Source: Ophiura sarsii
Lineage: Eukaryota; Echinodermata; Ophiuroidea; Amphilepidida; Ophiuridae
DNA length: 64,000 nucleotides
NCBI GenBank assembly: GCA_035610835.1
Contig: JAYJML010000201.1
Location: forward strand, 1-64,000
Direction: 5' to 3'
Shown here piece after piece: positions 28,625 to 55,515 of this stretch; within the stretch, counting starts at the first letter, position 1, and each line of letters starts with the position of its first letter. Position numbers and translations under genes: made by a program. The notes below the pieces were generated by a model. That model worked only from the letters and a program-made list of their open reading frames with translations, made no database searches and was not told the DNA's origin.

Positions 28625-30682
28625 ATATGGGCGGGTTCAAGAAAAATGGCACCAAAGTGGGACATTTTGTCGAAAATTTCAAACACGATATCTGTTCATT
28701 TTTTTGCTGTTTTTGTGATGTTAGGATGTCAAAGTTTATAAAATAACTTGAGGGGCATTCCAAAAAATCCAATTAACTTCTTTTTTTGCATCTACAACAC
28801 AGAAAATGCATTTTTTGAGAAAAAACTACTTAATGTATGTGCTTTGGTTATCTTTAAGTAATTGTCTTTATAAACACTACTTTTAAGGTTCAAATGTAAG
28901 TAAGAAGATTGTTCATTTAAAAAAACCACCTTAACAATGTATTTACAACACAAAAAGCGAAATAAATTCATTTTTTGTATAAAACAACACTATTTTTTTC
29001 ATTTTGAGGGCAAGAAGTTTTTTTCCCTTCAAAAACAAGTAACAATAAGATTTAACAATAGCTTTATATCAAAGACCTTGCTAATACAAAACTACACAGA
29101 AAGTTTTAAGTTCCTACTACAATCTATGGCAACATAGTATCACTTAGTGTGTCAGTAAAAACGCATATATATATAATGTTACACTCCTGACAGAGCAATT
29201 CTAGTTAAGGTATCACATATTTTGAGAATCATGAAATGATTCCAAATATTTTTGAACTGATATGGAAGATTGCCCAATACATATTCCAATGGTTATCCGT
29301 CAACCACCATAAAAGTGGACAGTTTTTCATTTTTACCAAGAAGTTTTGAAATTACTCTGAAAGATTTCCACTTTACACTGCCAAAAGTACATAGATTTAA
29401 TAAACAAAGGAAAAGAAAATCAGTTTTCTACAATTTAGTTTAAATATCTCGTTCATACAAAACCATGCTGAAAGAATTGAGTTTCTATTACTATCCACTG
29501 CGCGACAGTGCAGCATTAAAGAAGCACATACATTTGTACAATTTGGTGTTACACTCCTGACTTGGCAATATTGTTGATAATATATGTCACTATGAAGATT
29601 ATGAATAATGGTTCCCATTGTTTACAGTACCTTGAGAGGCATTAAGGTGTACATTGGAAGTATCTCAAAATATTTATGATCAGAATAGGATCATATTAAA
29701 CTCCAAAATCACTTTCCCATTCTCATTTCAAACATTTGGACTTGAACCCATATTCATGAGTAATCATATTTGTCCAATTTAATTAAAAAAACAATAATAG
29801 TAAATGATTTCCCATTTACTAACACACTAACAATTCCAGAGAACAATAACAAATAAAAACTGACATTATAAGTATGAGTATATCTGCAGTAAAAACATTG
29901 ACACATCTAACGTGAAATAGTGTTACACTCCTGACAAACACTTATTTGCTCTCTGTAAAAGACACATGTGACACAACATATTTTGTTTTGTTACATTTAG
30001 TTTATTTCATCAAGGTTCAACAACAAAACAATATTATTGCTTAAGTTCATCTGCTTCATAGTTAAGAAAAATTAAGATGAATGTCAATGTTACACTCCTG
30101 ACATTCCTGGGTTATCACAATAAAATGCGTAACCGTAGATACTGAAATGCAATTATTACAAGTCAATTGGCCATTTAGTGAAAGGCAATAGAATACCAAT
30201 TGAAAATATGCAAAAATGAATAGCAAGCTTTTTGTTCATCTTGCTTACTTTGACCAATTTGTTCAAAGATTTGGATTTGACCTGATTTTTCAGAAAACCA
30301 AACTATAATGATGTATTCATAATTTTGATAGACATATAGCATCTAATGTTCTAAGTGATTTGTTCTGAATAAAAGTTAACACTTCAAATATTAAAAACAT
30401 CCATGTTATGGGTCAGTAGGAACATAGAATTTTTTGTTCTGGCCTAATGAAATTACATGTCCAATTTTAATGTCCCACATAAACGTTACACTCCTGACAC
30501 TTTTTGGGGTCATAAATGGCAACAACAAAAAATCTAAAGTAGCTTCAGTTAACATTTTTTGGCACAAATAAGAGACAATAGTAGCACACATTTTAGAACA
30601 ATTACCTATTCTGTAAATCACTTTGTATTAGTGATAGCAGGTACAATGTGAATGGTGCCATTTTTTTTAAACCCGCCCATAT
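28625..30682. mobile_element. E1, inverted-repeat block with iterated GTTACACTCCTGACA box
   Basis: The ends are inverted copies of a 30-bp sequence starting ATATGGGCGGGTT and ending TGGCACCA (28625-28654 and 30653-30682, 28 of 30 identical). Inside, GTTACACTCCTGAC(A) occurs five times in one orientation at 29178, 29548, 29922, 30089 and 30485. The intervals are 370, 374, 167 and 396 bp, about one or two times 185-200. Sequence between boxes is AT-rich and only loosely alike from interval to interval (for example around 29090 and 29450), as if old tandem monomers had decayed around the box. No transposase or long open frame is present. Possible TA duplication at the ends cannot be separated from the terminal sequence. 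Confidence 0.8.
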
Positions 30683-31356
30683 GGCCCGTTAAAATATGGT
30701 AGAGAACGTGTTTTTTCGCGTTCAAGATTCGCGAAAAGTCATATTTGTAATATCGTCCAACTTTGGAAGCTTATATTTCAGTCTTCCTACTAGGTAGAAA
30801 GCTGAAAGTTGGTATTCTTACTAACTTTTGGCCATATTTCAAGAATCTTACCTCAAATCAACTGTATCTCCTTTACTTTTTATGCTATTGCCCCCCAAAG
30901 TAGCCACTTTATTCAGCCGGAAGTGTTTTTCGGGATTTTGTGGGTCATGCTGTGACCCCACGGGCAGCTACCTATGGGGGGTGGGGGGGGGGGGGGGGGG
31001 TCACATGAATCCCATATTGCATGAGTAATCTAGGGTCACATGTCTATAGCCACAAGCAAGTATAAACTCATCAATGTATTTATAAAAACAAGGTCTTCTA
31101 AAAAACTGGCCGAGACACCAGGAGAGGATAAATGAGCAGTGAACACTGTTTAAGCGCCTAGGACTAACATATCTAAATAGATAATTAGATATGTTAGTCC
31201 CAGGTTTAAGCTAAGAGGGACTTTCCGCGCAATGTTACCTTTCTGTTAGTATCATTTGAGCATGGGAAAAATATTTCAGGGGGCTAATTTGTGAAACTAC
31301 ACTTTAAGAATAAAAAAAAGGTTCTGAAACTGTCCTGTATAGGAATGTGTAATGGT
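30683..31356. other. Spacer with poly-G run and hairpin
   Basis: No gene seen. A G-rich run lies at about 30976-31000. A hairpin with arms GGACTAACATATCTA and TAGATATGTTAGTCC spans about 31158-31201. Confidence 0.5.
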
Positions 31357-34272
31357 TATATGGCTCATTCCATGAAGTTGGGGCATTTGTTAAAATAGCA
31401 GAATTTGGTACTTTAGGCAGCTTATAAACTGTTTTACTCTATGTGTATATCAAATTTTTTTAGTGTCCAAAAACAGTACTAGGTTATAGTATTGAGCCAT
31501 GAAAGAAGAAAAAAAATTGACCCTTCCTTGAAGAAGAAAAAAATAAAAAATTAGGTGGTGTCCAAGACCATTTTTGCTAATAAACGTGACATGGAAAACA
31601 CAACAATTAATATGAGTTTTATGTAAGCAAAACTATCATAGAATTGCTTGGAAATCGATTTGATTAATAAAAGATACATGTATTCATAGTTTACTGACCA
31701 AAACACCTCGTCACGCTGGACTGATTTTTCACCCAAGCAACATGAAAATTGCCTTTCCGATGCTACGCACGGTGTCCACAAAATATACACGTGTAGCATC
31801 GGGAGTTTTCATTGCTGAATGGGGGTAGTTCTCTATCATACATTTTAAAATTATTTTCCAAAATTAAGAGCATTTATCAATTGAAAACTATTGCAAATGA
31901 GAATAAATTTCATGAAGACCATTCCATATATTCATGAAAAAGTATACCGTGCCGTGTGCATGGTGTCCTAACCATAAAATGTAGCATCGTGATAATCATC
32001 CTATGCAATTTGTGGGAATCCCCCCCTGGAGATAAATAAAACATTCCATATTTCTTTTTGTAAGGATAGAGGTCAATAGCTATCAGGTTTGTTTGGAATT
32101 TGCCACACGTGGGCTAGTTTTATCAAGGTTTCAGTCGCTGATGTCCCGTTGTAGCATCGGGACTTTTATGTAGCATCAAAATGTAAACATTGGATAGTTT
32201 TGTGAATGGTAAGTGCGATTGTAATTATTTCTTAATGTTGCTTGTATGTCTGTATTTATTAATGCATTTTTATTGAAAGGGAAACACTGAATCAGAATTT
32301 CTTTTCATGTTATGATATTAATTTTGAGTCACGGACACCATAATAATTTGGCGTCCATGTAGCATCGGGCATAGCATGGGCAATATTTTGCATTGGGTAT
32401 CGTTATAGTTCGTTGAAATTGTATTTTTTTTGTAGAATCACATCATTAATAAACTTTGAAGTTAATAATGAATTAGTTTTTGCTCTTTTAATGCTAATAA
32501 TATAGCTTACCAATACGATGCTACATGGACACCATGTCCATGTAGCATTTCATAAAATTTGCCTAATTAGACTAAAACAATTACCCCATTCGAAATTATC
32601 CATCACCCAAAACATTCAAAACATTGCCTACATTTTACTACACTTTACAGAAAAAAAGGCATATTATGAGAGATGTATATCTAATGAAATATATTAATAC
32701 ACAATGCTACATGGACACCATTTCCATTAGCATTTCACTGAATTCACAATAAACATTCCCTTATTTTAGTTTTATTTACTATAAATAAAACAAATAATTG
32801 TAAATCATTTAAGTTCTCTATCCTTTGCTATTCTTTTTCATGTTAAATGAATAATAAATAAAATACTCCAGCATGATTTTAATATAAATATTTTCCTGCA
32901 ACACAAAAAGTGCAACATGAATAAATAATCTACTCCAATATCAATACACAATGTTCCATGAAGATACTAAGCCATAGGGTTTATTTTGTTTTGCTTTGCA
33001 GGTTCTTGACATTAATTCAGAAGACAGTTCTATCGTCCTGGAATTTATGGAGATGAAGACAAGGAACCCATCATTTTCAAAAACTAGTACCTTTCCAAAG
33101 AAATCCATCATGGCAATTAAATTATTTTTTTGCAAACTGACTTTTTAAGTGATCAAACTTTTCAATCATCTTTATCAATAATAGAGGATGATTCAATCAG
33201 AAACAAGCAAAGAGACTAAGATCACAAAGGGTACTTTAAGAACAACACTGCATGAAGTTTGTTTCAGTGGACATCTTAAGTTTCTTTGATCAATGGTGTA
33301 GGCCTATTGTTATTGTGTAATTGTAAGAAATGGTGTATGTGTATCATAGGTAATTATGTTTTATGCTTCATGGCAGGTTATCTTTTTGTGTAATTTGTAG
33401 TTTTACAATCCATGTTATTAATTTTATCGTGTGCTTATAACATAAAAAGTTAACATCATAGTACATCCTCTCTATTGATCTGAAAAAGATGCACCTGTTC
33501 AAGCTGTTCCAAATATTTTAGGGCACGGTGTCCATGTAGCATCGTAATACTTAAGTACACAGAAAAGGTAAATTTTACATGAACAGTGTTTAGATAAATT
33601 TCAAGCAATTCACTCTGTGTATCTACTTGATATGATGAACAAGTAGACAAACCATTCACACTCAAATAATTGTAACAGTATGAATAGTCTTATTATTAAC
33701 AATGTTACAAGACGCGGTGTCCATGTAGCATCGGTAGTGCATTTTATAACATTATACAGGTAAATAATACTTCATATACTTCAATGTGCATGGTTTATAG
33801 AGTACTTTACATCAAACAAATATTGATATGTACTTTATTTAAATTCATTATACATTTTGCAAAATAAAGAGTCACTTTTCAATGAGTTTTTACATAAAAC
33901 AGTTAATCTACGATGTCTTGTTCGTTAAGTTATGTTCAACCTAGACAAATCTGGTTTCTTTTCATGTATTTGTGGTTCCAAGTAGTTAATTGAGGTATAG
34001 AAACTTGGCCCACATCTTAAGCTATTTTATTAGAAAATGATATGGAAATGAGAAATGGTGTCCATGTAGCATCAGGATTTTTGGAAATGTCATCCAACTG
34101 TTGAACATGTGCGGTTATTTTACACCAAATGTTACATTAAAATAAAAAGTTCTACATTGGACTTTGGTAAATGTAGAACCTAAAAAAGAAGAAAGAGTTG
34201 GAAAATATCCATTTTGAAAATTTCACTTGGATGTCACATAATATGCCCCAACTTCATGGAATGAGCCATATA
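31357..34272. mobile_element. E2, inverted-repeat block with iterated GGTGTCCATGTAGCATCG box
   Basis: The termini are perfect 30-bp inverted repeats beginning TATATGGCTCATTCCATGAA (31357-31386 and 34243-34272). The box GGTGTCCATGTAGCATCG, complete or partial, recurs inside. GTAGCATC cores lie at 31791, 31981, 32151, 32170, 32359, 33536, 33725 and 34066, with a degenerate GTAGCATT at 32542. Inverted partners lie at about 31758, 32516 and 32703. Successive forward cores are 190, 170, 208, 183 and 189 bp apart, with gaps of 341 and 799-994 bp where copies are missing or decayed. The rest is AT-rich and noncoding. Perfect termini around a decayed interior suggest either recent activity or selection on the ends. 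Confidence 0.82.
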
Positions 34273-34745
34273 GCAAATTAGAATGAGTTCTATAAAGGTT
34301 ATAGGCCAAATAATAATAAAAACCTGTTCAGCGTCTTGACCTTTTCCAAAGAAGAAAGGAGGCCCTTTTTATTTTTTCCAACTATGTGCAAAATTGCCCT
34401 AATTAGCAATAAACTTTACGAACCTAATGAAGGAGGAGGCCCTTTTTAATAGGTTTTATTTCATGGTTCTAAGGGGTTTGTGCTTTGAATGAAACACCTG
34501 AAGAATAAGGTTATGACTGAAATAAAATGAGAAAAGAAGAAAATTGAAGTTGACCCAAAAAAGGAAGCAGGAGAGGAAGGTAAACAGGGTTTTTTTTAAA
34601 TATTATTTTGCCATATTTGTATAACCATATTTGGTTTATTAATGGTTAATTAAGAACCCTTTGGGGTCCTAAGTCTTTCCTTATTGTGATTGGTTATAGT
34701 ATTTGCAAATCAGAATTGTCAGGAACTATCCTTGTTTTCTAGGTT
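34273..34745. other. AT-rich spacer
   Basis: Two GGAGGCCCTTTTTA phrases (about 34359 and 34434) form a weak direct repeat. No gene seen. Confidence 0.4.
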
Positions 34746-34753
34746 TATCCAAG

Positions 34754-35174
34754 CAGTGGCGTAGCTCGGGGGGGGGGGGGGGGGGGGGGGGGCAGTTGCC
34801 CCCTGACAGAATTTGTTGTGCCCCCGCCCACTTTGTGCCTCCGCCCCACTCTTCGGATAGGGCTTTTATGCATTTGAACCATTTAAAAATGACCATTTTC
34901 GTTTTGTTAAAGGACATTTATTTTTGAAAACGGCCTAATAAAACACTGAGGATTTACCATTTGTTGACTGTTGTTGTGTTTTTGGGACTGCGACATTTTT
35001 TGATCGTGCGAAATTTTTTGACCGTGCAAATTTGTTGGACCTCACCCCCCCCCCCCCCTCCCCCACTTACGTGAAATTCATGAGGTGACTGACTGAGAAC
35101 AAATTTGGGGCAACCTTTTACGAAAATTTTAGAAATCTTGCCCCCCCTAAACAAATTTCCTAGCTACGCCACTG
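34754..35174. mobile_element. hAT-like non-autonomous element 2
   Basis: The ends are CAGTGGCGTAGCT and AGCTACGCCACTG. Flanks TATCCAAG (34746-34753) and TATCTAAG (35175-35182) match in 7 of 8 positions, a target duplication with one later mutation. It has a G run of more than 20 at the left and a C-rich run near 35043-35064. It belongs to the same family as the element at 27654, with no transposase. Confidence 0.82.
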
Positions 35175-35182
35175 TATCTAAG

Positions 35183-36599
35183 GACCATAAAGGTTTCACA
35201 CAGCACAGAAATACGTTGAGAGGCAAGTCAAGCAAGGTCGGCGGAGTTGGTTCTTTCTCTAGGGTATTCTTTGTATGCGATCAAAAATATTATTTATAAC
35301 ACTTTACTTAATATTGTCAAGTTACACAAAGTTCTTCGAAAGTTAAGCATTTATAAATATATTTAAGCCATAAATATAATTGGTCAAACTAATTAAATTT
35401 ATTTTATTTCGCCATAAAGCGTTAAAACGTTAAAAGCGTTAATTAAACCATAAATGGTTAAACAATAGACCATTTCAAATCCGAGAATATACGATCGGTT
35501 CCGAATGTTTCCGATTAGCCGAGCGATAAAAAAACAAAATAGTCTCGTTCCACGTTTTACTTCTCATGTGTGCACGCGTGTATATAAACATAGTAAATCA
35601 CTAGGCGGACAACCAACTATATAGGACAAGACTGTGAATGCGATCAAGAACGTGACCTGTTTTTCCGAAGATTTCCGAATAATCGAAGGACGGGAATCGA
35701 ATAAAAAGAAATAACCATCAACTTTATTAACCGAGATTCAAACAATCCTTGGCATTGGTTTAACGATGGAATACAAGGTGGAGTCTTTGTTGGCTCGTCC
35801 AATCAGAAATTAAAATCTAGATCAATATCTACGATAAAATTCTCGCGCCAAATGTTTATACAATCCTTTTCATTGGTACGTATATATACGTACTTTAATT
35901 GGTTGGTCGTATCACTATACACAATTTGTATCCAATCGCTTACCGTCTCACACTGTCCAGCACTGTCAAGACTGTTGCTGACGGGCCAAGCACTGCACTC
36001 ACATATTCTCCAATTGGACATAAACATCGAAAGTATGTCAATAAACCCAATCAGTGATCATTGTCTATCGCTATAGAGTTCGTGACGTAAGGTTCGCAGA
36101 TTTGAAGCAATCTTGTAGAAATAATATTTAGCGAATTAAATGAGAATATCTGCGAAACAATTGTACAAAACTTGTCTCGTCACATGTCATTATATTATAA
36201 GCTCCAATATAGGGGTCTCTAATGAAGCTTATTCCAAAATATATCACTTTCGGCTGATTCTTCTATATAATACCATGTGCACCCTTCCCTTTTAACCTCC
36301 GCGAAGACCCATTAGTTGTGGCCTCTAATATGCCTCGACACTTCTGTGTCTCGGCAAAAATGGCATGGCTCCAAAGTTGGGTCCAGGTGAAAAAATGTCG
36401 AAAAGACCCCCTCCGTCTTGTCAATGGTTGACCCCGTGATCAGTTGAAACATGTTTTGAGATTTACAGCAGTTGAACATATGTATCATATCTACTTGTAA
36501 ACCAAATTTCAGCTCTAGTACTCAACTCTTTCAGGGTAATGCCAAGTTTTCATTTTTTTTAAAATTGGGGTGGCAAAAATAAAACGGGTTGGCGTTTGT
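35183..36599. other. Unassigned sequence
   Basis: No gene supported. A short GTTAA-rich stretch lies at about 35422-35465. Open frames here are short and overlap on both strands, as expected by chance. Confidence 0.35.
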
Positions 36600-36935
36600 C
36601 GGATCTTCCGGGTCAAAGGTCGTCTATGGGTCGAATTTTCAAAGTTTGTCCGATCGGGCTTAAACTCGGTGACGGGAAGCCAGAGTACGAGTCGAGCGTG
36701 GAAAAAATAAAACGGCTTTGCTTTTCTTGGGTCGTCCGGGGTCAAAGGTCATCTAGGGGTCAACTTTTTGAATTTTCAAAGTTTGTCCGATCGGGCTTAA
36801 ACTCGGTGACGGGAAGCCCGAGTACGAGTCGAGCGTGGAAAAAATAAAACGGCTTTTCTTTTCTTGGGTCGTCCGGGGTCAAAGGTCATCTAGGGGTAAA
36901 CTTTTTGAAGTTGGTCGGATCGTTTTTAAACCCCA
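36600..36935. repeat. 137-bp tandem repeat, about 2.3 copies
   Basis: AAAGTTTGTCCGATCGGGCT occurs at 36641 and 36778, giving a 137-bp period. Each unit includes GGGGTCAAAGGTC, resembling the minisatellite at 48.7-51.2 kb. Copies are nearly identical. Confidence 0.88.
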
Positions 36936-37357
36936 ATAAGCCTATCTTGATTTATGGGCATAATATTATCTGGACTAGGCATCTGTGATGTGGATTTTAA
37001 GGGTGAATTGGGTATGGGATAAGGATGAGGATCTGGATTTAATACTTTGAAAACATATCATTCTTGCACATTTGCAATGGTTATCATAAATCATAAAGAT
37101 CTACCAAGTAACAGAGCCATACGATTTTTAATTACTTCAAAATCAAGGTTTGAACCGGCAACTTATTTTCAAGAGGCTGAGCGGATTGTCCCCGTTTTTT
37201 CGTAGTGCAAATAGACACGCGTTGCCGCCATTTAGGCCTACAGTGTTTCCTCTACGATCGCAACAGAATACTAATCGGGAATGTTTTATGGAAATCGAAG
37301 CAAATTATGTTAAAAAGTTCATTAAATTGGAAGCTGATTTCCATTACTAAAAGCAGA
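36936..37357. other. Unassigned spacer
   Basis: I recognise nothing here. Confidence 0.35.
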
Positions 37358-37562
37358 AATTTTCGCGGTGGTTTTATTTTCGCGTTTTTTCGCGCAAAAT
37401 AATTTACACGCGAAAATGATAACACGCGAACATATTGTTTTCAACATTCATGCAGTGCATCCAGAAGGTCGCCCGCGAAAAAAACAATTCGCGAAATGTC
37501 TATACTCTATGATATCTAAATGCGCGAAAATATCTTTACGCGAAAATATTGGCTTTTACAGT
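37358..37562. repeat. Cluster of CGCGAAAAT boxes
   Basis: Within 205 bp, CGCGAAA(A)/TTTCGCG occurs about nine times, mainly as CGCGAAAAT on the plus strand and TTTCGCG at the left edge. It ends GGCTTTTACAGTA. The density is far above chance. It could be a small mobile element or a cluster of protein-binding sites. Confidence 0.6.
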
Positions 37563-37734
37563 ATGATTTAGTAAAGTTCTGGGATGTATTTTCAGAGAAA
37601 ATACAGTCACGATCACAAGACAAGACAAGAAATATTTATTAGTCCATGATAGTCATTCCTGATATATATAAGTCAAACATGAATAATCAAGCTAAGGGCA
37701 CCAACTAGAATGGTACATGAAGTATAATAGTAGG

Positions 37735-37930
37735 CTACCTGGATTATTAATGGCACATGGTATATATTATCTGGATTATGTTAGGGGGCTGTCGTTTTCT
37801 TCGGTAAGAGGTCAGAGCCTCTACCAAATATCATTGGTTGTGTCGTGTTTTTACAAGGAAAATATGGCAAGGGGTCATAAAATTAATACCATTGTAAATG
37901 GGGGTGGTGGGCGGGGGGTGGTCAAAACAA
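37735..37930 (+). repeat. Direct duplication, copy 1
   Basis: Matches 38356-38550 from CTGGATTATTAATGGCACAT through the G-rich end and GTCAAAAC, with indels. Confidence 0.85.
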
Positions 37931-39776: not shown

Positions 39777-39784
39777 TTTCCTGT

Positions 39785-40520: not shown

Positions 40521-40544
40521 CCAATAAGTACATTTGTACACAAT

Positions 40545-44162: not shown

Positions 44163-45799
44163 ACCTGGTCACATTTTTTAAGTTGGGACCCAATTGGTGC
44201 ACATTTAGCAATTTGGTGAAAATCACCTCTCTTGGCACCTTTTTAGCCGTATCACAAGCATAGTTCATCTAAAGTAAATATAACCATACATTTTTGGAAA
44301 GCTGATATACTACGGATTTTAATGGCACTAATTTTAACCTGATATTCAGGGTGGCCAAAAAATCATATAGGGTGTAACAAAAGAAATATACAGGAAATAC
44401 TTAACTTTTTAAAAGGACTCACATTTTTTCCCAGTATGTATAAATTAAAATCTAACTTATTGATGAGAAAGCATGGTTTTCCCTTTCCAAAAATATATAT
44501 TTGCCGGGGTTTCTTAGTTACAGTAATACTATACAGGGTGTGCAAAAAGTAAAAATTATTACGCTCATTAATTATAAAAAATAGCTAACTATATTCAAAG
44601 TAGCTCAAAATACATCAAAACATATCAATAACTTGTCAGAATCTGAAATTTGATGAAGGATGGTTATTTCCTACTTGAAAAAAATATACCCCATCAAAAT
44701 TAGGAGTTATTTTTTAAAGATTATACAGGGTGCTTCAAATTTTAAAATAAGTCACTGTGACACTGTCACAATGTGTTATTAACTTGGTTGGTTAGACTGT
44801 ATACAGAATGAAATTACTATAGAAGTAGGCCTGTGTTTCAAGCATGTGTTAGACCTTTATTCCAGGGAATAAAAGGCTAAATAATATTTAGTTTGAACTG
44901 TTACACATCAGGCTGGTATAATACAGGGTGGTAAAAAATGTAATCTTCGTAGGTTTAAAATGCATTGATTCATTTCATTGTAACATTATATTAGATTGAT
45001 TGATTGTACAGTGTAATGGACATTTAACTGAGGTTGAAGATGACAACCCTTATCAACTTAATGAAATTCATAAATCATACATTTTGAAATGCACAACCCT
45101 ATAATGTGCCTATCTAGGATTATTCTTATCACATCCGTTTATAAGATTTAATTAATTTTTAATTAATTAGTGTTTATTTCATTAAAAAGTGTCTTTGTAC
45201 ACTAAATACAGATATGATAGTAACTGTAAACTTCAACATCATGACCATTTTTACAGAAAATGTGGGTTCTCTAAGCAATTTCTACTAAAAGCTCATTTGA
45301 ATATAATTTGCAGCCTTATTATCCCCACCTCCACCATGCCGACTAATTATATTTAACGAGTTACATGAATTGATTAAGCTTCATTTAAATGTTTTACCTA
45401 ATTTGTATGATTAGAGCATTAAATTCTCTTTAAAATAAGACCAAACTTGCAATTCCATGTTGTACTAAACCAGAGATACAAGCATTTGAATTTTTTAGAA
45501 TCGTTTACAATGCTATCTCCATTGGAAATACACACACCGCAACCTCCTCCCCCGCAACCTCCTCCCCTTCCACCCATGACTTATTATGTTTAATTAGCTG
45601 TAGTAATTAATTGGTATGCATATTTAATATTATTTTTCTTGATACTGATAAAGAGATAATTGGGCTTTCATATAAGCCCAAATTTGCATATCTGCTATGC
45701 TTATAACAGCACTTTAATTAGAAAACCAATAACAAATTTTACCGAAAATGTGCATATTCCACCTTTTTTGGGTGCCCAACTTAAAAAATGCGACCACCT
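44163..45799. mobile_element. E5, inverted-repeat block with iterated TACAGGGTG box
   Basis: The left end, GGTCACATTTTTTAAGTTGG through CCCAA (44167-44193), and the right end (45768-45795) are inverted copies with one mismatch and one indel. The box (T)ATACAGGGTG recurs at 44347 (as TTCAGGGTG), 44534, 44726 and 44924, 187, 192 and 198 bp apart, in the left half only. The right half is AT-rich with TTAATTA phrases. No coding sequence. Confidence 0.78.
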
Positions 45800-46248
45800 G
45801 TGAAAAATGAAATTTAAGAGTACACATCCCGTGAACCCCCAACCCGAGAACTAACCACCCCACGAACCGCGAATTCTAGTGTAATATAATTGTAAAAATA
45901 TACAAATCCCAGTTTTTATCATACTTTTGTAATTGAGGGCGCTGCCTCCACCATATCTCTTAATGCCCCTATAACGCAATCCCATAAACAAACAATTCAT
46001 AATATTGTTGACAAAAATAACAACACATTATGGTTTACCACGTTATACATCAGTACATTATTAAAGACCCAGTAACGTTGGATTCCCGTTTCTGTTTCAT
46101 GTCAGTCAATAGTCATCAATGTAAAGTTACAGATGTTGCCGGTTGACTCTTTTCACGCCCATCGAGTGTAAACTGTATAATAATTCGTTTACGTCACTTG
46201 TACAGCGTGCGTGTGCTGAAAAACAAACAAAGTAAAAGAATTTCAACG
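45800..46248. other. Unassigned spacer
   Basis: No gene or element recognised. Confidence 0.35.
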
Positions 46249-46364
46249 AAAATAGCACACGTCACGGGGGGACGACGGGGAGAACGAAAATAGCACACGT
46301 CACGGGGGGACGACGGGGAGGACGAAAATAGCACACGTCACGGGGGGACGACGGGGAGGACCGG
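46249..46364. repeat. 38-bp minisatellite, 3 copies
   Basis: Three near-identical units built on GAAAATAGCACACGTCACGG and GGACGACGGGGAG, followed directly by a G run. Confidence 0.92.
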
Positions 46365-47287
46365 GGGGGGGGGGGGGGGACATTCAAGTCAAATATATAT
46401 CAATTATGGGTCATCTTTGCACCTCGTAGTGAGAATTTTACGTTTCTCTCCGAAATTGAGCACACATAAAAAACCGAGAATACCAAATACTACACTTCCA
46501 CCCCTTTTCAAATGTTACAGTACAGGGTGTATCAAAAAAAATTGGACACTTTTTCATGACAGTGTAATACTTGTTATAATCATTGGACCATGACCAATTT
46601 AGTCTCAATGTAAAGCCCAATTACAAATGTAGTTATTATGATATCCTGAAAATAAGAGATCAATCCGATGAAGAATAAGAAAACTAGCATAATTTGCATA
46701 AACCATGTCATGTACTGGTTTGTACAATGGGATTTACATGTATAGACCAGTAAATAACATGGTTTACGTTTCAATACGTTACAATAATTATAAACATAGA
46801 AAATAATCTATCAGTCAATAATAGCAAAGATTCATTTTCTGGCACAAATCAATACAGGCTAAATAATCCACAAATTTAATCAGATTCTTCAAAATTGTGT
46901 AGCATTTCGCTATGCGATACCGGATATATTGCACACTGGGGGGGGGGGGGGTGTTTTCATGTAACTTTTTGATTTGTCGAGTAAGAAAATGACAAGCAGG
47001 GGGGCTGGAGAGGGGGGGGGGGGGGGTAGTTAGAGGCGTTGCGTCCCCATACCGCCGTGAAAAACTGCAATTTCCAACTTAAATTGTCTGTGTTCCTTTC
47101 TCCTTTCTGTCCGTTTCCTTTCCCTTTTGGTCTCTTCTCCCTTTCTTTCCCGTCTAAGCAAAAGGCTTTCTTTCTTTGATGTGCAGCCTCTCCAAGAAAC
47201 ATATAACATGAAATTTCTAAAATTGCATGTGTGCACGCTTCTTAAAGCAAATTCTCCCCGAGGTCCTTTTGCTAGGATACGGAAAGC
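46365..47287. other. Spacer with G runs and one CAGGGTG box
   Basis: TACAGGGTGTATCAAAAAAA occurs at about 46512, a further match to the E5 box and to the end sequence at 47288. G runs near 46940 and 47013. No gene supported. Confidence 0.4.
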
Positions 47288-47770
47288 TATACAGGGTGAG
47301 TAAAAAAACCCTGCAATTTAGTGGAAAGAAGCCATTTTGTTTTCAAAACCGAAATCAATTTTAAAACATTTTAAACGTTGCAAGAATGACATATTTAATC
47401 CTAACTTTGTGTGAAAAAATGAAGGCGATCGCATTTTCCGTTTGTCTTTGGTGACCCTTTTTGCTGCAAAAACAATTTACATGTTTGTCCACAAACACAG
47501 TGATTTTCAATTGAAATTGAACACATTGCATTTTCATATTTGAATATCCCGCCAACAAAAAATTTGGAAAATGTCAGTTTTTTTATAAAAATTTAGAACA
47601 TTATAAGCATTTCATAGCATGGGTAGGGTAAATTGATTATGTTAACTCACATGTAAACAAGAAAGGATGCATCAAATTCCAATAACATCACAAATGTACT
47701 CAAGTTTCCAAATTTGGCATTAGTGTAGTAGAGGACACCTGAACTATTAGGGATTAAATAATAAATATCA
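47288..47770 (+). mobile_element. Left arm of a long inverted pair (TATACAGGGTGAGT end)
   Basis: It starts TATACAGGGTGAGTAAAAAA and runs to GAGGACACCTGAACTA. Homologous inverted sequence lies at 53637-53932, colinear apart from an extra piece of about 170 bp in this arm. The TATA/CAGGG start is compatible with a TA-inserting element. The two arms could be the ends of one 6.6-kb element or two separate copies facing each other. Confidence 0.75.
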
Positions 47771-47861
47771 ACAAATATAAACATTCTAAAGTACTTTTTC
47801 ATATAACAACCTTCAAACATTACAAATCTGTTTGTTTTTTAATAATAAAAAAGTCCTAAGG

Positions 47862-47945
47862 CCAAAAAAAAAAAATTGTTATGTTGTCCTCGACCGCCCA
47901 CTCGACATTTCAGGGCCGCTCCGATTTTTTTTTCCTTCAGATTTT
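47862..47945 (+). repeat. Left member of a nested inverted pair
   Basis: GGCCAAAAAAA...TTGTTATGTTGTCCTC is inverted at 51598-51641. A T-rich CTTCAGATTTTTT stretch adjoins both members. Confidence 0.75.
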
Positions 47946-47961
47946 TTATTTTTTAAAAATC

Positions 47962-48599
47962 ATATATGAAGAGGTATTTTGCAAAAGGGCTATGGTGCAT
48001 TTTTTCAAAAAATGAGTTTGATATAGAAATGTATAGGGAAAAATCATATGTTTCAAGGAAACAAAGTCATTTTTTTCAAAAAGACCTACATCTCATTGTA
48101 AACAGCCATTTAAATTGTTGTTTTGTTGCAAAAGGGCCTGTATCCAGAATTAAATCGGGATACAGGCCCTTTTGCAACAAAACAACAACTTCAATGGCTG
48201 TTTACAATGAGATGTAGGTATTTTTGAAAAAAATGACTTTATTTCTTTGAAACATATGATTGTGACCTATACATTTCAGTATCAAACTTATTTATTTGAA
48301 ATGATTAAAATAAATGATTTTTTGTGTGTGGTATTTTTCTTTATGTACAAACAGATGGAGTTTTGTTGCAAAAGGGCCTACATCCAAATTTTCAAAAAAT
48401 GTAAACATGATTTAAAAAAAACACAAAACTAGCACATTTAAAATTTATTTCAATTTCAATTAGTATGTAGTGTACCTCTTTCATAATCCATTCAGTTTTT
48501 CAATTGCTCAACTTGAATATTTAGAAACAGTTTTTTGACTTTTTCTCAATAAGAGCCAAAGTGGATGTAGGCCCTTCTGCAAAATACCTCTTCATATAT
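47962..48599. mobile_element. E4, inverted-repeat block with GCAAAAGGGCCTACATCC box and central palindrome
   Basis: The termini ATATATGAAGAGGTATTTTG...AAGGGC (47962-47990 and 48571-48599) differ at one position. The box (TTTTGTTGCAAAAGGGCCTR) appears at 47981 in the left terminus, 48128, inverted at 48165-48175, 48368, and inverted in the right terminus at 48571. The last two intervals are about 203 bp. Around 48150 a palindrome has arms of about 136 bp (roughly 48010-48146 and 48153-48290) with high identity. The internal box is the inner half of the terminal repeat. No coding sequence. Confidence 0.8.
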
Positions 48600-48704
48600 A
48601 TTTTTTTAAATCGTTTTTTTGTCTCGCCTGATGTTATCAGAAAGAGACTATGTTATCACTATTTCTGTCTGGCGTCCGCCGTATGGCGTCCGCCGTGTGC
48701 CAAG

Positions 48705-51245
48705 AAATACCTTTGTGACGCGATATCTGAAGATCCGTAAGGCCTATCGTGATGGGACTTGGTGGAGGGAAGGGGGGTGGTGCGTTCTGTTGCTGATTGA
48801 TTTTTCAAGGTCATCGGGGGTCATGCAAGGTCATCGGGGTCAAATATGCTTAAAACTTTTGAGACGCGTTGTGACGCGATATCTAGAGATCCGTAAGGCC
48901 TATCTTGATGGGACTTGATGTCAGGGAAGGGGGTGGGGTCAGGGATACTATTAACTTTGGGATAGGAAAGTTGTATACTAACGTACGTAGCGAAAACGGA
49001 CCTTTTGCATATTTGAATAAATTATGGTTATCGTCCGGAATGTGTCGGTGACCGGCGTTTAACGCGTTTAACAATGTTTAACCAGGTTTAACGGCAGGTT
49101 AAACGGCATGTTAGTCAGCATAGGTTTGGGGGCGCTGCAGACGACGGTGGCCACGTGAAACCTAAATTTTGAATTCGTAGTGAATAACACGTAATCGCGA
49201 ATTTTAAACTATCATTTTGACAAATACATCATAATTAAAAGGATTTTTATCGTTAACCGGGCGATGACTGTTAAAAATAATTCAAAATGGTGCACTCCCG
49301 TTGCCAAATTGGGTCGTCTGAGAGACGCGTGGCCAGCGTTGCGTCGTCTGCTACAATCATCACGCCTGATCGGTATAGCGCCCTCAATTCTATGCTGACT
49401 AAGTTCGATTTAAAAGTGGACCCGATCGGCAAGCTCAGTGACATACCCCTGGTGGGGTGTTCTTTTGCTGATTAGATTTTCAAGGTCATTGGAGGTCATT
49501 CAAGGTCATCGGGGTCAAATAAGATCTGTAAGGCCGATCTTGATGAGATTTGGTGGAGGGAAGGGGGTGGTGTGTTCTTTTTGCTGATTAAATTTCCAAG
49601 GTCATCGGAGGTCATTCAAGGTCATCGGGGGTCAAATATGGGGTCAAATAGATCAGTAAGGCCTATCTTGATGGGATTTGGTGGAGGGAAGGGGGTGGTG
49701 TGTTCTTTTTGCTGATTAAATTTTCAAGGTCACCAGAGGTCATCGGGGTCAAATATGGGGTCAAATAGATCAGTAAGGCCTATATTGATGAGATTTGGTG
49801 GAGGGAAGGGGAGTGGTGTGTTCTTTTTGCTGAATAAATTTTCAAGGTCATCAGAGGTCATTCAAGGTCATCGGGGGTCAAATAAGATCCATAAGGCCTA
49901 TCTTGATTGGATTTGGTGGAGGGAAGGGGGATGGTGTGTTCTTTTTGTTGATTAATTTTTCGGGGGTCATCATGCAGGGGTCAAATATGGGGTCAAATAG
50001 ATCAGTAAGGCCTATCTTGATGGGATTTGGTGGAGGGAAGGGGGTGGTGTGTTCTTTTTGTTGATTAATTTTTCGGGGTCATCGGGGGTCAAATATGGGG
50101 TCAAATAGATCAGTAAGGCCTATCTTGATGGGATTTGGTGGACGGAAGAGGGATGGTGTGTTCTTTTTGTTGATTAATTTGTCAGGGTCATTGGGGTCAA
50201 ATATGGGGTCAAATAGATCAGTAAGGCCTATCTTGATGGGATTTGGTGGAGGGAAGGGGGGTGGTGTGTTCTTTTTGTTGATTAATATTTCGGGGTCATT
50301 GGGGGTCAAATATGGGGTCAAATAGATCAGTAAGGCCTATCTTGATGGGATTTGGTGGACGGAAGAAGGATGGTGTGTTCTTTTTGTTGATTAATTTATC
50401 GGGGTCAAATATGGGGTCAAATAGATCAGTAAGGCCTATCTTGATGGGATTTGGTGGAGGGAAGGGGGGTGGTGTGTTCTTTTTGTTGATTAATTTTTCG
50501 GGGTCATCGGGGGTCAAATAGATCAGTAAGGCCTATCTTGATGGGATTTGGTGGAGGGAAGGGGTGGTGTGTTCTTTTTCCTGATTAAATTTTCAAGGTC
50601 ATCAAAGGTCATTCAAGGTCATCTGGGGTCAAATAAGATCCGTAAGGCCTATCTTGATGGGATTTGGTGGACGGAGGAGGGATGTTGTGTTCTTCTTGTT
50701 GATTAATTTTTCGGGGTCATCGGGGGTCAAATAGATCAGTAAGGCCTATCTTGATGGGATTTGGTGGAGGGAAGGGGGGTGGTGTGTTCTTTTTCCTGAT
50801 TAAATTTTCAAGGTCATCAAAGGTCATTCAAGGTCATCTGGGGTCAAATAAGATCCGTAAGGCCCATCTTGATGGGATTTGGTGGACGGAAGAGGGATGG
50901 TGTGTTCTTTTTGTTGATTAATTTTTCTGGGTCATCGGGGGTCAAATATGGGGTCAAATAGATCAGTAAGGCCTATCTTGATAAGATTTGGTGGAGGGAA
51001 GGGGGTTGGTGTGTTCTTTTTGCTGATTAAATTTTCAAGGTCATCAGAGGTCATCTGGGGGTCAAATAAGATCCGTAAGGCCTATCTTGATGGGATGTGG
51101 TGGACGGATGAGGGATGGTGTTTTTTTTTTGCTGATTAATTTTTTAAGGTCATCTGGGGTCAAATAACATCTGTAAGGCCTATCTTGATGTGATTTGGTG
51201 TAGGGAAGGGGGTTGGTGTGTTCTTTTTGTTGATTAAATTTTTCA
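48705..51245 (+). repeat. Minisatellite of about 100-120 bp, about 18 copies
   Basis: Units contain GTAAGGCCTATCTTGATGGG, TTTGGTGGAGGGAAGGGGG, TGTTCTTTTTG(C/T)TGATTAA and one to three GGTCATCGGGGTCAAA phrases. The number of these phrases varies and sets the unit length. Units start at about 48738, 48893, 49530, 49655, 49774, 49890, 50006, 50114, 50220, 50329, 50427, 50526, 50644, 50735, 50856, 50968, 51076 and 51175. Open frames through the array follow the repeat and are not genes. Confidence 0.93.
48939..49457. mobile_element. 519-bp insertion inside the minisatellite
   Basis: A repeat unit is broken at GGGAAGGGGGTGGGG (to 48938) and resumes after a second GGTGGGG (49451-49457) with TGTTCTTTTGCTGATTA. 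The 7-bp direct repeat looks like a target duplication. The inserted sequence is unrelated to the minisatellite and contains GTTTAAC phrases (49058-49110). Its ends (AGGGATA, and AGGGGTA inverted) are only weakly alike. No transposase. Confidence 0.65.
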
Positions 51246-51597
51246 AGGTATTACATCCCTTGCATGAACTACAATGCATACCTCTGTGACAGTGCTACAT
51301 TGTATCATATGTTTCATCATCATTTCTTTCAAGTCACTTTTGATGAACAGGCGAGACGCGCCGTTCGAGAACCGCCTTGTTTTTTTGTTAAATTTTTTTT
51401 CTTCAGATTTTTTTTTTTTCAGATTTTTTTTAAACAGTTTAAATGGCATTTATATTAAATTAAGTGTTTATAACATATATGTGCGGCTCTTAGAGTGATT
51501 TTAACTTCTTGTTGGCTGAACTTTGAGCTTCTGCTGGTAAAAGATTTTTTTTTTTTTTTTTTTTTTAAATCCGCCCGCCCGCCCGCCACTCCTCTCT

Positions 51598-51641
51598 GAA
51601 AGGTGTGGAGGACAACATAACAATTCTTTTTTTTGGCCTAA
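51598..51641 (-). repeat. Right member of the nested inverted pair
   Basis: Inverted match to 47862-47905 (GAGGACAACATAACAATTCT then the T run and GGCC). (GCCC)n lies just left of it. Confidence 0.75.
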
Positions 51642-51704
51642 TTGTTAACCAAAATAACAATGGAAAACTGGCGAAAATCACTCCTTTTTCCTGATCACCT
51701 TCGA

Positions 51705-52865
51705 ACTACTACTACTACTACTACCTGACATTTATACCGCGCCCAAAACCAATCAAATTGCACTAAGGCGCATAAAAACACAAACAATGGATGAAAAAAA
51801 AAAAAAAAAAAAACATAAGTCAAATAACAGCAGAAAAGTCAATGCAAACATGATGAAATAAGTTATTGATTGTAAGCATTATAGAAGAGATGTTGCTTGA
51901 GCAGTTTCTTGAATATGTGAATTGAGGAAGCACATTTAACATGATTTGGTAATGCATTCCAAAGTTTAGGTCCATAGCAAGAAAAAGATCTGTCTGTTGA
52001 ACGATGTGTCCTGTGCTCAGTGAGAATGAAAGAGGCAGTTGAGGTCGAGCGAAGATTGCGGTGAGATGTTGAAACATGAAGTAGTTCAGAAAGGTAGTCA
52101 GGAGCTGTCTGGTGAAGGCATTTGAATACAATTACAAGAATCTTGAATTCTATGCGCTGCTTTATCGGGAGCCAGTGTAACTTGACAAGATCGGCGGAAA
52201 TGGAGTCATATTTCCGTTTTCTAGTTACAATGCGAGCTGCAGTACGTTGAATGTTTACAAGACGTTTAAGGAGCGATTTACTGATACCAACCAGCAGACT
52301 ATTACAGTGGTCGATTCGTGATGTTACGAGGGAGTGAACAGCCATTTTGGTTGATTCAGTTGTTAACATCTTGCGAGCACGGCCGATGTTTATAAGATGA
52401 TAATTGGCCGCTTTCACAACCTTCGTCACTTGAGCGGACATAGTCATGTTGCAGTCGAACATCACACCAAGATTTCTAACCGCGTTCACCTGCACTGGGA
52501 CATTGACACCAGCGATATTCATCGAGGGGATATGGAATTTATTCAACTGGGCACGAAATCCACACACAATGACCTCAGTTTTCTCAGCGTTCAGTTTCAG
52601 AAAATTTCGCGACATCCAGTTCTGTATATCACTAACACAGTTCTCAATAGTGGATAAAGCAAGATTCACACCATCAGCAGAAATTGGACAAATAGATGCA
52701 TAAATCTGCGTATCGTGTGCGTAAATATGCAGAGCTAAACCGTATTCGCGAATGATGCGACCAAGCGGAAGAGTGTACAGACCAAAAATAGCAAGGGCCC
52801 TAACACGGACCCTTGAGGAACACCATATCGCAGAAACTGAGTACTGGAGAACCCAGAGATCGCAC
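51705..52865 (-). mobile_element. 5'-truncated CR1/L2-type LINE
   Basis: On the minus strand this is the 3' part of a non-LTR retrotransposon: reverse-transcriptase C-terminal region, a 3' untranslated part with a T run (51793-51812 as A on the plus strand), the phrase GCGCGGTATAAATGTCAGG and a (TAG)n tail (51707-51724). A GCGC(G/T)(A/G)TATAAAT...microsatellite end is typical of CR1/L2-like and Rex-like elements. Homology stops upstream near 52835-52865, so the copy is 5'-truncated, as is common for LINEs. Confidence 0.88.
51863..52835 (-). pseudogene. Reverse-transcriptase fragment, inactive
   Basis: The reading frame ending at 51863 encodes the RT palm/thumb and the C-terminal region typical of CR1/L2-like elements (HWLPIKQRIEFKILVIVFKC, near 52130-52190). 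The catalytic YADD box reads YAHD (about 52700-52711): the first catalytic aspartate codon GAC is CAC. Upstream, the conserved GVPQGSVLGPLLF block is present but in another frame, so there is a frameshift at the T run near 52785-52790. Both lesions mean no active enzyme. I see no endonuclease domain. Confidence 0.88.
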
Positions 52866-53636
52866 ATTTAATTCTGATCGGATATTCAATTCTCCCAACA
52901 TGAACAGCCAATAGAAACAGGGAGCTTATATAATGGGAGAGGAAATTTGAATCGCAAAATTGAAGCCTAAATATATGGGCATGTGGGTGAGTACGTGCGA
53001 TGTACCTCTTAATAACTCATTAGCATAATTTAGACGCGTGATGTACCTCTTAATAACTCATAACATGATTTAGAGTTAGACGCGTGATGTACCTCTTGCA
53101 TAATGAGGGCACGCAATGTACTTCTTAGAAAGGCTTCAATCTCGAAAGTGGGAGTCTGTGTACAGTGGCACCGGCCTGATAGAAACAGTTCTACACTACT
53201 GCGTCAACTTTTCAACCAATCAGAGATCGCGTAAAAGATTATTGGGCTCGAGAATTTAAACGGAGATGGCGGCCTGCGCTGTTTTTATGCACAATTTATT
53301 GCTTTTATTTCACTTTTTTGACATCAATCCTGACAAAATATGAACAGTTTCTTAATATTATTTTCTTGCAACGAATTGTGAACTGCATCCAATCATGTGA
53401 GTTTTTACAATTGTAATCACGTTTTTAGTGTTCAAAATAAACTTTTACTGCATACAAATGGTGGTTTTTCATGGAACATTTAAAGCTTGTTGTTTTACCC
53501 CGTAATTTCCCTCCATACTCAATGCCCTGCCCTCTTCCCAAAAATTAAACCTTGTACCATAGAGGGTTGGGAAGCTTTTAAAGCTTGTTAAAATTGTTAT
53601 GATGCTTTAGAATGATAATAAAGTTACTTTTAATCC
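52866..53636. other. Spacer with degenerate minisatellite
   Basis: At 52998-53125 the phrase CGCGTGATGTACCTCTT(AATAACTCAT) recurs three to four times. The remainder shows no gene. Confidence 0.55.
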
Positions 53637-53932
53637 CTTTATACTGTAGCTCAGGTGTCCTCTCCTACACTAATGCCCCAAATTTGAATGAGAGACACGT
53701 TTTGCGATCTGATGCATATTTTGGGTATCTCGTGGACAAACATGTGAAATGGGTGCACGGGTAAAAAGGTTCCCCAAAGGCAAACGGAAAATGATATTGA
53801 CTTCATTTTTCACACTAATTTAGTAACAAATAAGGTATTCTTATAACGTTTAAAAAAATTCAAACTTCAACTTAGTTTTTAAAACAAGATGGCTTCTTTC
53901 CACTATTGCATTTTTTTTACTCACCCTGTATA
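53637..53932 (-). mobile_element. Right arm of the long inverted pair
   Basis: Reverse complement starts TATACAGGGTGAGTAAAAAA and follows 47288-47770 through AAACGTT..., TTTTCCGTTTG, ACATGTTTGTCCAC and GAGGACACCTGA. Substitutions are frequent, so the pair is old. Confidence 0.75.
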
Positions 53933-53987
53933 GGTCCGCTCATAATATTTTACCCTATAGATACATGTAGGTTCGAAAATTATCTTT

Positions 53988-54024
53988 ACTAGCGGGCACC
54001 AGCGCTTCGCGCTGGACCCGCTAG
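53988..54024 (-). repeat. Helitron-type GC-rich hairpin
   Basis: CTAGCGGG...CCAGCGCTTCGCGCTGG...CCCGCTAG is a near-perfect palindrome preceded by ACTAG. It has the form of the 3' end of the element at 38782. I could not find a matching 5' TC end, so this may be a solo end. Confidence 0.45.
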
Positions 54025-54159
54025 AAGATTTCACGGGGAATAAGTAAACAAAGCGTAAGAAAATGTGATACAATAATATCAAGAACATGTCCTACATGTA
54101 TACATAATCCAGACAGGGCCCTATTAAAACAATCCGAATAGCGCAGGTGCTTTTGATAA

Positions 54160-54317
54160 TCCAGGTATACATGTGCCTTAATCTAGGTAGGCCTACGTTT
54201 GTGTTTCCCGATACCTATGTAGGCCTCCCATGAGACCTGAAATGCGGGTACCCGTTGTCCCATTATATCCAGGGACCCCATAGGCCTAAGCCCTACCCCC
54301 TAATCCAGTTGCCCCAT
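54160..54317. repeat. Degenerate CCAGGTACCCATGTGCCC minisatellite, left part
   Basis: Irregular units of about 25-40 bp built from (T)CCAG(G/A)TA(C/T)CC(A)TGTGCCCTTAAT, interspersed with TAGGCCT. The pattern continues right of E3. Confidence 0.6.
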
Positions 54318-55515
54318 GTGGGTGTTTCCATAAATACAGGTACCAGTGGGATATTTGCATTGTCTATATTCAAATGGTTCAATATCCTGTTATACGAATG
54401 TACTTGGTTAATTTTCATTTTAAAATCTGATGAAGTCCATAAAGTTGCACTGGTATAACACCACAATATGTATATTATATCAACATTTTTTCTTATTTTG
54501 GTGAAAATTCGGCAAAATATCCTACAATTTTGGCAAAAAAGTGTGACATTTAAGACAGGGTCAAAATATTAACAATATGGTGATTTTGTTTAGAGTAATT
54601 GTGTTATCTGTAGGCTAAATGATCAATATCAAACTAGTTTTGAAGTGTTAAACACATTTTTCATAAGCAAATTACTGAGAAGTAATAATTGAATACATGG
54701 CAATTTTACCGTCACCGTGTAACATTTGGTGTCTCAAAAACCCGTTACACGGTGAAGGCAGTTTTCTTTAAATTTAGCAGTGACAATAATCTCCATCTTA
54801 TTTCCCTTTTGTTGATTTTACAAGCCTCTCTGATAGGTTAAAGGAAAATAGAAGAGTTAAACTGAAATTGCAACAAACATAGAAAATATAGCTGTTTTTA
54901 AGTTTGAATATTATGTTTGGTGTCTCCAAAAATGTTACGCTGTGAGAACTTTAGGGTAACATCGTAGTTATGTGCCAGCACACTTTATGAATAAATTGTG
55001 TATAAACTGTCTCTTGTTATACATGTAGGCTCCTAGCATACATGGAACAAAAGTTTCCACTTTATCAATATAATTAGAGTTACAAGGAAATTAAGGTTTG
55101 GTGTCTCCGTTACACGGGGACGCATGAAATATCAATTCCACCACCCAAAAAATAGGTAATCTCATCTTTTCACTATTAATGATGTTTATAGAGTAAAGCA
55201 ATGGTAATTGCCTTTAAAAAAACAAAATAAAAGTGATCAGACAGTTTCTGCAGTTGCCAGGCATAATTGAACATTTTGGTGTCTTTTAGTGTCTCAGTTA
55301 CACGGGGAGACAAGTATTTCCAAGAAATACTGATGTTATAATAGTGAAAATGTATCTCTGTACGCTTCAATGACCTGTTCTGATCCATTTTCATGAAATA
55401 GAATAATGGAACATATTATGAAAGTGGTTATTCAGTTAATATAGACACATTTTGAATATTTAGACCTAATTTGTGTATGTCACACATTGGCGCCCTTATT
55501 TATGGAAACACCCAC
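54318..55515. mobile_element. E3, inverted-repeat block with iterated GGTGTCTC...GTTACACGG box
   Basis: Ends GTGGGTGTTTCCATAAATA (54318-54336) and its perfect inverse (55497-55515) continue inward with weaker similarity for about 12 bp. The compound box TTTGGTGTCTCC...GTTACACGG(T/G)GA recurs at 54728, 54919, 55100 and 55278 (position of GGTGTC), 191, 181 and 178 bp apart, all in one orientation. At the first copy an inverted CACCGTGTAAC stands just upstream (54713). The intervals between boxes are not alike. The block interrupts the surrounding minisatellite. No coding sequence. Confidence 0.78.

Follow-up and report, generated by a model that had tools for sequence, protein, structure and literature searches.

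In a 64,000-nucleotide stretch of the Ophiura sarsii genome (positions 1 to 64,000 of the forward strand of contig JAYJML010000201.1, assembly GCA_035610835.1; hereafter the window), five non-coding blocks, E1 to E5, each carry their own inverted ends and their own short word, or box, repeated at steps of about 190 bp. For E1, comparison with related families elsewhere in the genome shows that the sequence between the boxes was replaced, with hardly any change in the boxes or in their spacing. We read this constancy as purifying selection, which would make the box probably a working part of a mobile element, and we give a probability of roughly one half to the proposal that the boxes bind the transposase of their own family.

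E1 occupies 2050 bp (28629..30678; ends GGGCGGGTTCAAG...) between ATAT target duplications at 28625-28628 and 30679-30682. E2 (31362..34267, 2906 bp, ends GGCTCATTCCATGAAGTTGGGGC) also has an ATAT target duplication, E5 (44167..45795, 1629 bp, ends GGTCACATTTTTTAAGTTGGG) has ACCT duplicated on both sides, E4 (47968..48593, 626 bp, ends GAAGAGGTATTTTGCAAAAGGGC) has ATAT flanks in the window, and E3 (54320..55513, 1194 bp, ends GGGTGTTTCCATAAATA) lies between ATGT and ACGT, a duplication with one mismatch; all five are given on the forward strand. The inverted ends that a sequence-only reading of the window had claimed for the five blocks hold up: they match at 28/30 positions in E1, 30/30 in E2 and 36/40 in E4, over 29 columns in E5 (one gap, one mismatch), and over ∼20 bp followed by a weaker tail in E3. 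No open reading frame (ORF) of at least 90 aa lies wholly within any block, and three such frames span block borders, two at the left end of E5 and one at the left border of E3. Known RNA genes were rejected as a reading, as Rfam and tRNA scans of 26400-64000 gave no match.

Searches of the 1.57-Gb assembly (748 contigs, with the window as contig C316) gave 84 first-look candidates for E1, 1152 for E2, 408 for E5, 793 for E4 and 334 for E3, and 40 of these were scored per block; among the 40 scored for E5 are full matches at 90–96%. E1 has 41 matches, counting the window copy and fragments. Eight further E1-matching places (L037-L044) hold E1 copies, several interrupted by other insertions. 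Twenty of the 41 matches were fetched and 19 aligned end to end, L024 being dropped with its right end unaligned; in these 19 and the window copy the 4-bp target duplication is exact in 16 of 20 elements and off by one base in the other four. Most duplications are ATAT, and TTAA, ATAA and TTAT occur as well. An empty site was also found: locus L069 holds the surrounding repeat without E1, and a single ATAT stands at the insertion point. This ∼310-bp repeat, which E1 interrupts (28484-28628 and 30679-30848), has 222 first-look candidates elsewhere. A left end at 28485, considered as a sixth element, was rejected, as it belongs to the repeat that was E1's target.

The 4-bp duplication of E3 is exact in all seven loci examined out of 41 matches (ATAT, ATTT, ACAT, AAAT), and that of E2 in all three fetched full-length copies (ATAT, ATAT, GTAT). 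For E5 a single other copy was read (L079), flanked by ATGT and ATCT with one mismatch. For E4 the duplication is exact in three of seven other loci, and of the remaining four, L066 and L067 have identical flanks. Ends common to many copies, a duplication of fixed length and no transposase of their own are the marks of non-autonomous terminal inverted repeat (TIR) transposons, and they are found here, with a doubtful duplication in E4. By their ends, 4-bp duplications and many copies, E1, E2 and E3 are non-autonomous cut-and-paste transposons; E5 is likely one, on two copies, and E4 is a probable one.

The five E1 boxes, all on the forward strand, lie at 29178..29192 (GTTACACTCCTGACA), 29548..29562 (GTTACACTCCTGACT, with a final T also present in subfamily b), 29922..29936, 30089..30103 (167 bp after the third) and 30485..30499. 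E2 begins with two boxes in split form, GGTGTCC followed by TGTAGCATCG at a distance of 14 bp (31771..31801) and 11 bp (31962..31989), then has one with an altered first half (32143..32159) and one of the form GCGTCCATGTAGCATCG (32351..32367). Two boxes on the reverse strand follow, the first with an adjoining inverted copy that makes a near-palindrome (32516..32550) and the second with one mismatch (32702..32718), and the series closes on the forward strand at 33528..33544, 33717..33733 and, with one mismatch, 34058..34074; apart from the reverse pair, all E2 boxes are on the forward strand. The E3 boxes (TTTGGTGTCTC, within 54712..55308 on the forward strand) start at 54725, 54916, 55097 and 55275, the last copy being altered, and a partner word, GTTACACGGKGA, stands at 54744, 55109 and 55297, with an inverted copy at 54712. 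The halves of the E2 box are separated by 14, 11, 3 or 1 bp (31771-34074) and those of the E3 box by 8, 7, 1 and 1 bp (54725-55308), and in both the halves are mostly intact; they are possibly two recognition sites.

In E5 the box is AGGGTG with an A-rich tail on the forward strand (44347..44938, starts at 44347, 44368, 44534, 44726 and 44924), and the second copy, L079, also has five AGGGTG words. The E4 boxes (TTGCAAAAGGGCCTRYATC, 48125..48583) start at 48125 and 48365 on the forward strand and at 48159 and 48564 on the reverse; the last of them sits in the right end, and a shorter copy sits in the left end at 47978. E4 itself, together with a minisatellite and a reverse-transcriptase fragment, is enclosed by a 6.6-kb inverted-end pair with TATA flanks (47292-53928, CAGGGTGAGTAAAAAA), and the end word of that pair, ACAGGGTG, is the internal box word of E5, with another copy at 46521.

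A blind search compared the most over-represented 12-mer of each block (one mismatch, both strands) with the best of 25 dinucleotide shuffles, and its words coincide with the box positions implied by the intervals of the sequence-only reading. Block and best-shuffle scores were 10.9 versus 5.1 for E1, 19.1 versus 3.8 for E2, 14.6 versus 5.6 for E4 and 9.3 versus 4.8 for E3, where the word found was the partner word GTTACACGG beside the box; E5 beat its shuffles narrowly (4.6 versus 3.6), with three of five box copies recovered. Three of seven control stretches also scored above their own shuffles, c1 (9.8) and c2 (6.9) on poly-G/C runs and c5 (5.0 versus 3.9) on a dispersed word like GTGCCCTTAATAATCCAGGTACC; c3, c4 and c6 stayed below the shuffle maximum and c7 equalled it. 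The dispersed word occurs at 54147-56660 and also at 37734, 38360 and 44142; 15 sites match at least 15 of its 23 positions, versus 1–7 sites for 20 shuffled words, and two of the 15 are in E3's own ends. E3 is inserted among such copies, and E5 lies directly beside one. A box shared by all blocks is unsupported, with no cross-block similarity surviving correction for ten comparisons. The E4 box lies within its own ends (0/2000 shuffles), and the E3 box resembles its own ends (p 0.0185).

Successive boxes are 370, 374, 167 and 396 bp apart in E1; 188, 170, 208, 159, 186, 832, 189 and 341 bp in E2; 19, 165, 193 and 197 bp in E5; 147, 38, 202 and 203 bp in E4; and 191, 181 and 178 bp in E3. The intervals previously read by eye stand for E1 and E3. 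To those in E2, inverted copies and the 832-bp gap have to be added, and the lists for E5 and E4 need correction, the first for two boxes 19 bp apart and the second for an inverted pair 38 bp apart and outer boxes that are ends. Pooled over the blocks, the curated positions have a period of 191 bp, with an excess of 15.2 that none of 2000 random placements reaches (null mean maximum 3.7), and the blind positions, which remove the curation choice from this test, give 191 bp as well (excess 12.8, 0/1500 placements, highest null 12.3); random placement is a mild null, which any tandem origin would also beat. Neighbouring gaps of 165–210 bp number 14 of 23, versus 2.05 expected, and their clustering is still significant after dropping any one block. 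Taken singly, the blocks are weak for periodicity (p 0.006–0.072). With blind words in all five blocks and a pooled period of 191 bp, the claim of a block-specific box at about 190 bp is confirmed.

Beyond the window, the E1 box has 955 exact copies genome-wide, versus 4 for its reversed pattern. The first 100 listed places, all on contig C1, form 36 clusters with a few recurring layouts, nine of them single boxes. Five of the 36 clusters were fetched and gave families c, d, e (two copies) and f; together with the window family, a, and family b, ∼85% identical, they make six families in which the box is seen. The majority sequences of a and b differ at 0/75 box sites, 1/52 end sites and 301/1955 others (Fisher p 8e-6), and box ascertainment hardly enters into it, family b having been found by the left half of E1 and not by the box alone. 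Further stretches of a and b, up to 56 bp and without a box, are unusually alike, and the boxes are thus not the sole constrained parts of E1. In the alignment of a, b, c and f, all four agree at 69/75 columns of the boxes, 32/52 of the ends and 666/1923 of the rest, the box figure being somewhat inflated because an exact copy of one or more boxes led to c, e and f; boxes are more conserved than ends in this alignment (p 4e-5). E1-like ends accompany the same box in a, b, c and f and at the left end of e, and in a, b, c, d and f every box found has the same orientation. In E2, variable columns among copies are 1/178 in boxes and 115/2284 elsewhere (p 0.003), a count in which one half-box was placed 2 bp off.

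The distances along the element are kept across the E1 families. From the left end to box 1, families a, b, c, e and f measure 549, 548, 556, 552 and 563 bp; from box 1 to box 2, 370, 371, 371, 362 and 356 bp; from box 3 to box 4, 167 bp in every case, that is in five of the six families; and from box 4 to box 5, 396, 395, 392, 393 and 393 bp. For a, b, c and f, boxes 2 and 3 are 374, 365, 372 and 362 bp apart, and the right end follows box 5 at 193, 194, 203 and 195 bp, family e being left out of this last interval since its right end is assumed and not seen. Family f has a second copy of box 2 at a distance of 22 bp. Leaving aside a versus b, forced global alignment gives 71–83% identity between families for the intervals, with many small gaps whose lengths almost balance, and a loose gap penalty inflates both these identities and the gap counts. 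The sequence-only reading had set out beforehand three results that would tell against it, and for E1 none of them was obtained: the ends are kept, the boxes are more conserved, and the spacing peaks near 190 bp or its double.

Recognisable internal tandem monomers are present in two of the relatives. Family c has ∼370-bp units with one box each, 84% and 76% mutually identical, and family d has units of 184–188 bp with one box each, 78% identical. In the window only some pairs are recognisable (E5, z 5.7; E1, z 5.9). Among fixed 160-bp box flanks, 12 of 136 pairings exceed z 3, four of them trivial (overlapping E5 flanks and the E4 palindrome), and the non-trivial pairs are in E1 (5.9), E5 (up to 6.0), E3 (4.0, 3.8) and E2 (3.1). 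When box-to-box intervals are compared in register, 27 within-family pairs have a mean z of 0.15 with one above 3 (E5, 5.7), the reversed control has a mean of 0.21 with one above 3, and 93 between-family pairs have a mean of −0.13 with none. Relatives c and d thus show tandem growth and subsequent decay around the box, which we infer for the blocks of the window. The earlier suggestion that the blocks are decayed tandem monomers of ∼190 bp has good support in the E1 clan, with its units in c and d and its far more conserved boxes; no such support appears for the other blocks, where intervals show no general in-register similarity.

Family e (992-5790 of locus L074) is a 4.8-kb E1 relative with eight E1 boxes, one of them inverted, and a palindrome at 4206-4586. 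Its left and right parts are separated by a unique centre of ∼2 kb, in which no ORF is longer than 103 aa, and by one inverted box; the family may be a decayed autonomous element. Just beyond its presumed end, at 5820 of L074, a 187-aa ORF starts.

We propose that the arrays grew by tandem duplication of units of ∼185 or 370 bp, and that all but the box then decayed. Since copies of one family are alike while the intervals within one element are largely unrelated, the divergence of the intervals would predate the latest insertions and have taken place in lineages that were still moving, and a part kept through divergence in moving lineages was for that reason probably needed by the element. 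The boxes would be iterated sites for each family's mobility protein, most likely the transposase of an unseen autonomous element. A transposase specific to the family is suggested because clans that differ in the box differ in the ends as well, and also because the box of E4, and perhaps that of E3, forms part of the end; a box and ends peculiar to each block, both shared among the E1 families whose ends were seen, are what would be expected of a family-specific protein that reads both. Regular spacing could let several protein molecules load along the element, perhaps, if we may speculate, one molecule per nucleosome linker. As to the ∼185-bp spacing, nucleosome phasing may account for it, as may the mere length at which tandem units arise, and either would suffice. 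A more ambitious version, in which transposons code their own chromatin lattice (a family-specific box at nucleosome-repeat spacing, constrained above the ends, with transposase loading once per linker) and in which no fewer than five families of a single genome, unrelated to one another, reached or kept this architecture, is one that we put forward tentatively and hold to be doubtful.

Several observations weigh against transposase binding as the function of the boxes, or against selection as the cause of their constancy. The box is undetectable in the ends of E1 (p 0.96), E2 (0.105) and E5 (0.31). Neither a transposase nor an autonomous E1 copy appears among the loci scanned for ORFs, namely family e and L037-L044: ORFs within the 4.8-kb family e reach at most 103 aa, and the one ORF of at least 150 aa in L037-L044 (157 aa, in L038) lies outside the E1 match. 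Four of the six f boxes have one or two mismatches, and family d, whose ends were not located, has a different layout of 366, 184, 188 and 179 bp. Changes private to single copies are also rarer in E1 boxes (3/1500 versus 249/38028, p 0.03), a deficit that selection on active lineages alone does not predict. Copies of E3 (4/131 versus 57/1016 variable columns) and E4 (2/96 versus 11/501) show no significant box effect, those compared being too alike to reveal one, and one E5 pair shows no clear effect (3/87 versus 84/1493).

Of the other explanations, the best survivor is that the boxes bind host chromatin or repressor proteins, such as zinc-finger silencers, and that the transposons merely tolerate or exploit the binding. 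A period of ∼190 bp, the size of a nucleosome repeat, common to unrelated blocks is what such a protein might produce, and weak similarities link the boxes of E1 and E3 (p 0.029) and of E5 and E4 (p 0.032). However, no similarity is left after the correction for ten comparisons, the boxes differ by block, and they are kept within E1 lineages, which would gain nothing from a silencer site. The sequence-only reading had entertained a host-repressor site; that option loses weight since no two blocks use the same box, a pattern more in keeping with a protein specific to the family, and we regard a host protein as unlikely.

A related idea makes the boxes nucleosome-phasing or boundary elements, with selection on a ∼185-bp lattice and the box in the linkers. 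Phasing would fit the spacing, which is closely kept (167 bp in five of six E1 families, 392–396 bp, 193–203 bp), and the E1 positions counted from the left end (550, 920, 1294, 1461, 1857 and 2050) fall within 10 bp of multiples of 186, a period chosen post hoc, except for box 4, which is 27 off. The spacing nonetheless departs frequently from such a lattice (19, 38, 147, 159, 208 and 341 bp), and we find this explanation decidedly unlikely. We also give little credence to the boxes being internal promoter or processing signals of an element-derived non-coding RNA, for which the single direction of all boxes in a, b, c, d and f would speak; the inverted boxes in E2 and family e and the want of any Rfam or tRNA match speak against it. 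Least probable by our estimate is a neutral relic, in which transposons captured tandem arrays and the boxes look conserved by chance or through gene conversion acting locally. In its favour, the part of PMC12628747 available to us describes transposons with tandem arrays inside them, and recognisable arrays persist in families c and d. Against it, gene conversion would have to work in tracts as short as about 15 bp, the contrast of 0/75 with 301/1955 between a and b tells the other way, and half-decayed boxes (10–12 of 15) at missing lattice points are in no clear excess (22 versus 5–26 for 12 shuffled boxes, one of which was higher).

The E1 clan allows a direct test of whether transposases read chromatin-scale spacing. 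Transposon ends are usually thought to carry nearly all the sequence needed for movement, and in E1 an internal word is more conserved than the ends. The clan also forms a worked series, with recognisable units in c and d and mostly the box only in a, b, e and f, and this series bears on an open question about satellite DNA, how sparse lattices could come out of tandem repeats through selection on binding sites.

Among known systems, hAT elements have 8-bp duplications and short, transposase-bound repeats clustered near their ends. The blocks resemble them in having short repeated words, which here run in ∼185-bp steps along the whole element, and hAT was rejected because the duplications are 4 bp and not 8. 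The CENP-B box is a ∼17-bp protein-binding word in alpha satellite, which has nucleosome-sized units; the spacing is alike, whereas the units here are dispersed, lie in mobile elements and are decayed around the box. Helitrons are rolling-circle elements, while the blocks here have inverted ends and 4-bp target duplications, and a Helitron or Helentron with central repeats was rejected on these grounds.

Judging from the portions of the two papers available to us, two published groups come closest, elements that combine inverted ends with tandem arrays inside (PMC12628747) and the Helitrons of oysters, which carry satellite units of ∼166 bp (PMC8268682). Xenopus miDNA4 and Xstir, TIR elements or miniature inverted-repeat transposable elements (MITEs), are alike in their inverted ends and internal tandem units of changing number; their arrays, as described in the available text of PMC12628747, are repeated monomers, whereas E1–E3 keep little beyond a short box, at fairly fixed spacing and between dissimilar intervals. 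The oyster Helitron-type elements, with monomers of ∼164–166 bp, are likewise marine-invertebrate mobile elements with nucleosome-sized tandem units, and their 'conserved boxes' are, in the accessible part of PMC8268682, mainly the element ends, unlike the internal boxes here.

The Sola2 group has 4-bp AT-rich AWWT target duplications (ATAT, AAAT, ATTT) and short inverted ends according to the available sections of PMC3627910, which do not mention internal boxes. The 4-bp duplications of E1, E2 and E3, mostly ATAT, AAAT and ATTT, are Sola2-like; TTAA, ATAA, TTAT, GTAT and ACAT among E1–E3 and ACCT in E5 are unlike AWWT. No Sola2 transposase was found among the loci scanned for ORFs, and we do not claim Sola2 membership. 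A Repbase rule for non-autonomous elements, as given in the part of PMC4455052 available, asks for the same duplication length and for the first 11 bases to be alike with at most one mismatch; the ends of E1–E5 (GGGCGGGTTCA, GGCTCATTCCA, GGGTGTTTCCA, GAAGAGGTATT and GGTCACATTTT) differ by more than one base, and so do not form one superfamily under it. In the literature searched, subscription papers and Repbase aside, we found no account of inverted-end elements that carry boxes of their own family at fixed distances, and a text search for four box or end words found no paper. Scans of viral contigs with three short words returned 0, 0 and 8 stretches, and we regard the eight as chance.

Apart from the five blocks, the window holds several other repeats. 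Most of its left part (184-26415) is a tandem array of ∼0.52- and ∼0.99-kb units in a mixed higher-order pattern, mostly 97–99% identical, in which C exceeds G on the forward strand (skew about −0.17). The minisatellite enclosed with E4 lies at 48713-51249 and has units of ∼97–118 bp. The reverse-transcriptase fragment (51863-52867, reverse strand) is a 334-aa open frame with a best relative at 88% identity, and Amphiura filiformis is among its nearest named relatives at 62–64%. In the A. filiformis genome, the available part of PMC11310086 describes a burst of DNA transposons at ∼2% divergence. At 60765-61481 stands a near-palindromic element with ends TTAAGGGGGGACTTAAGG and TTAA flanks. We take it to be piggyBac- or Kolobok-like from its TTAA target.

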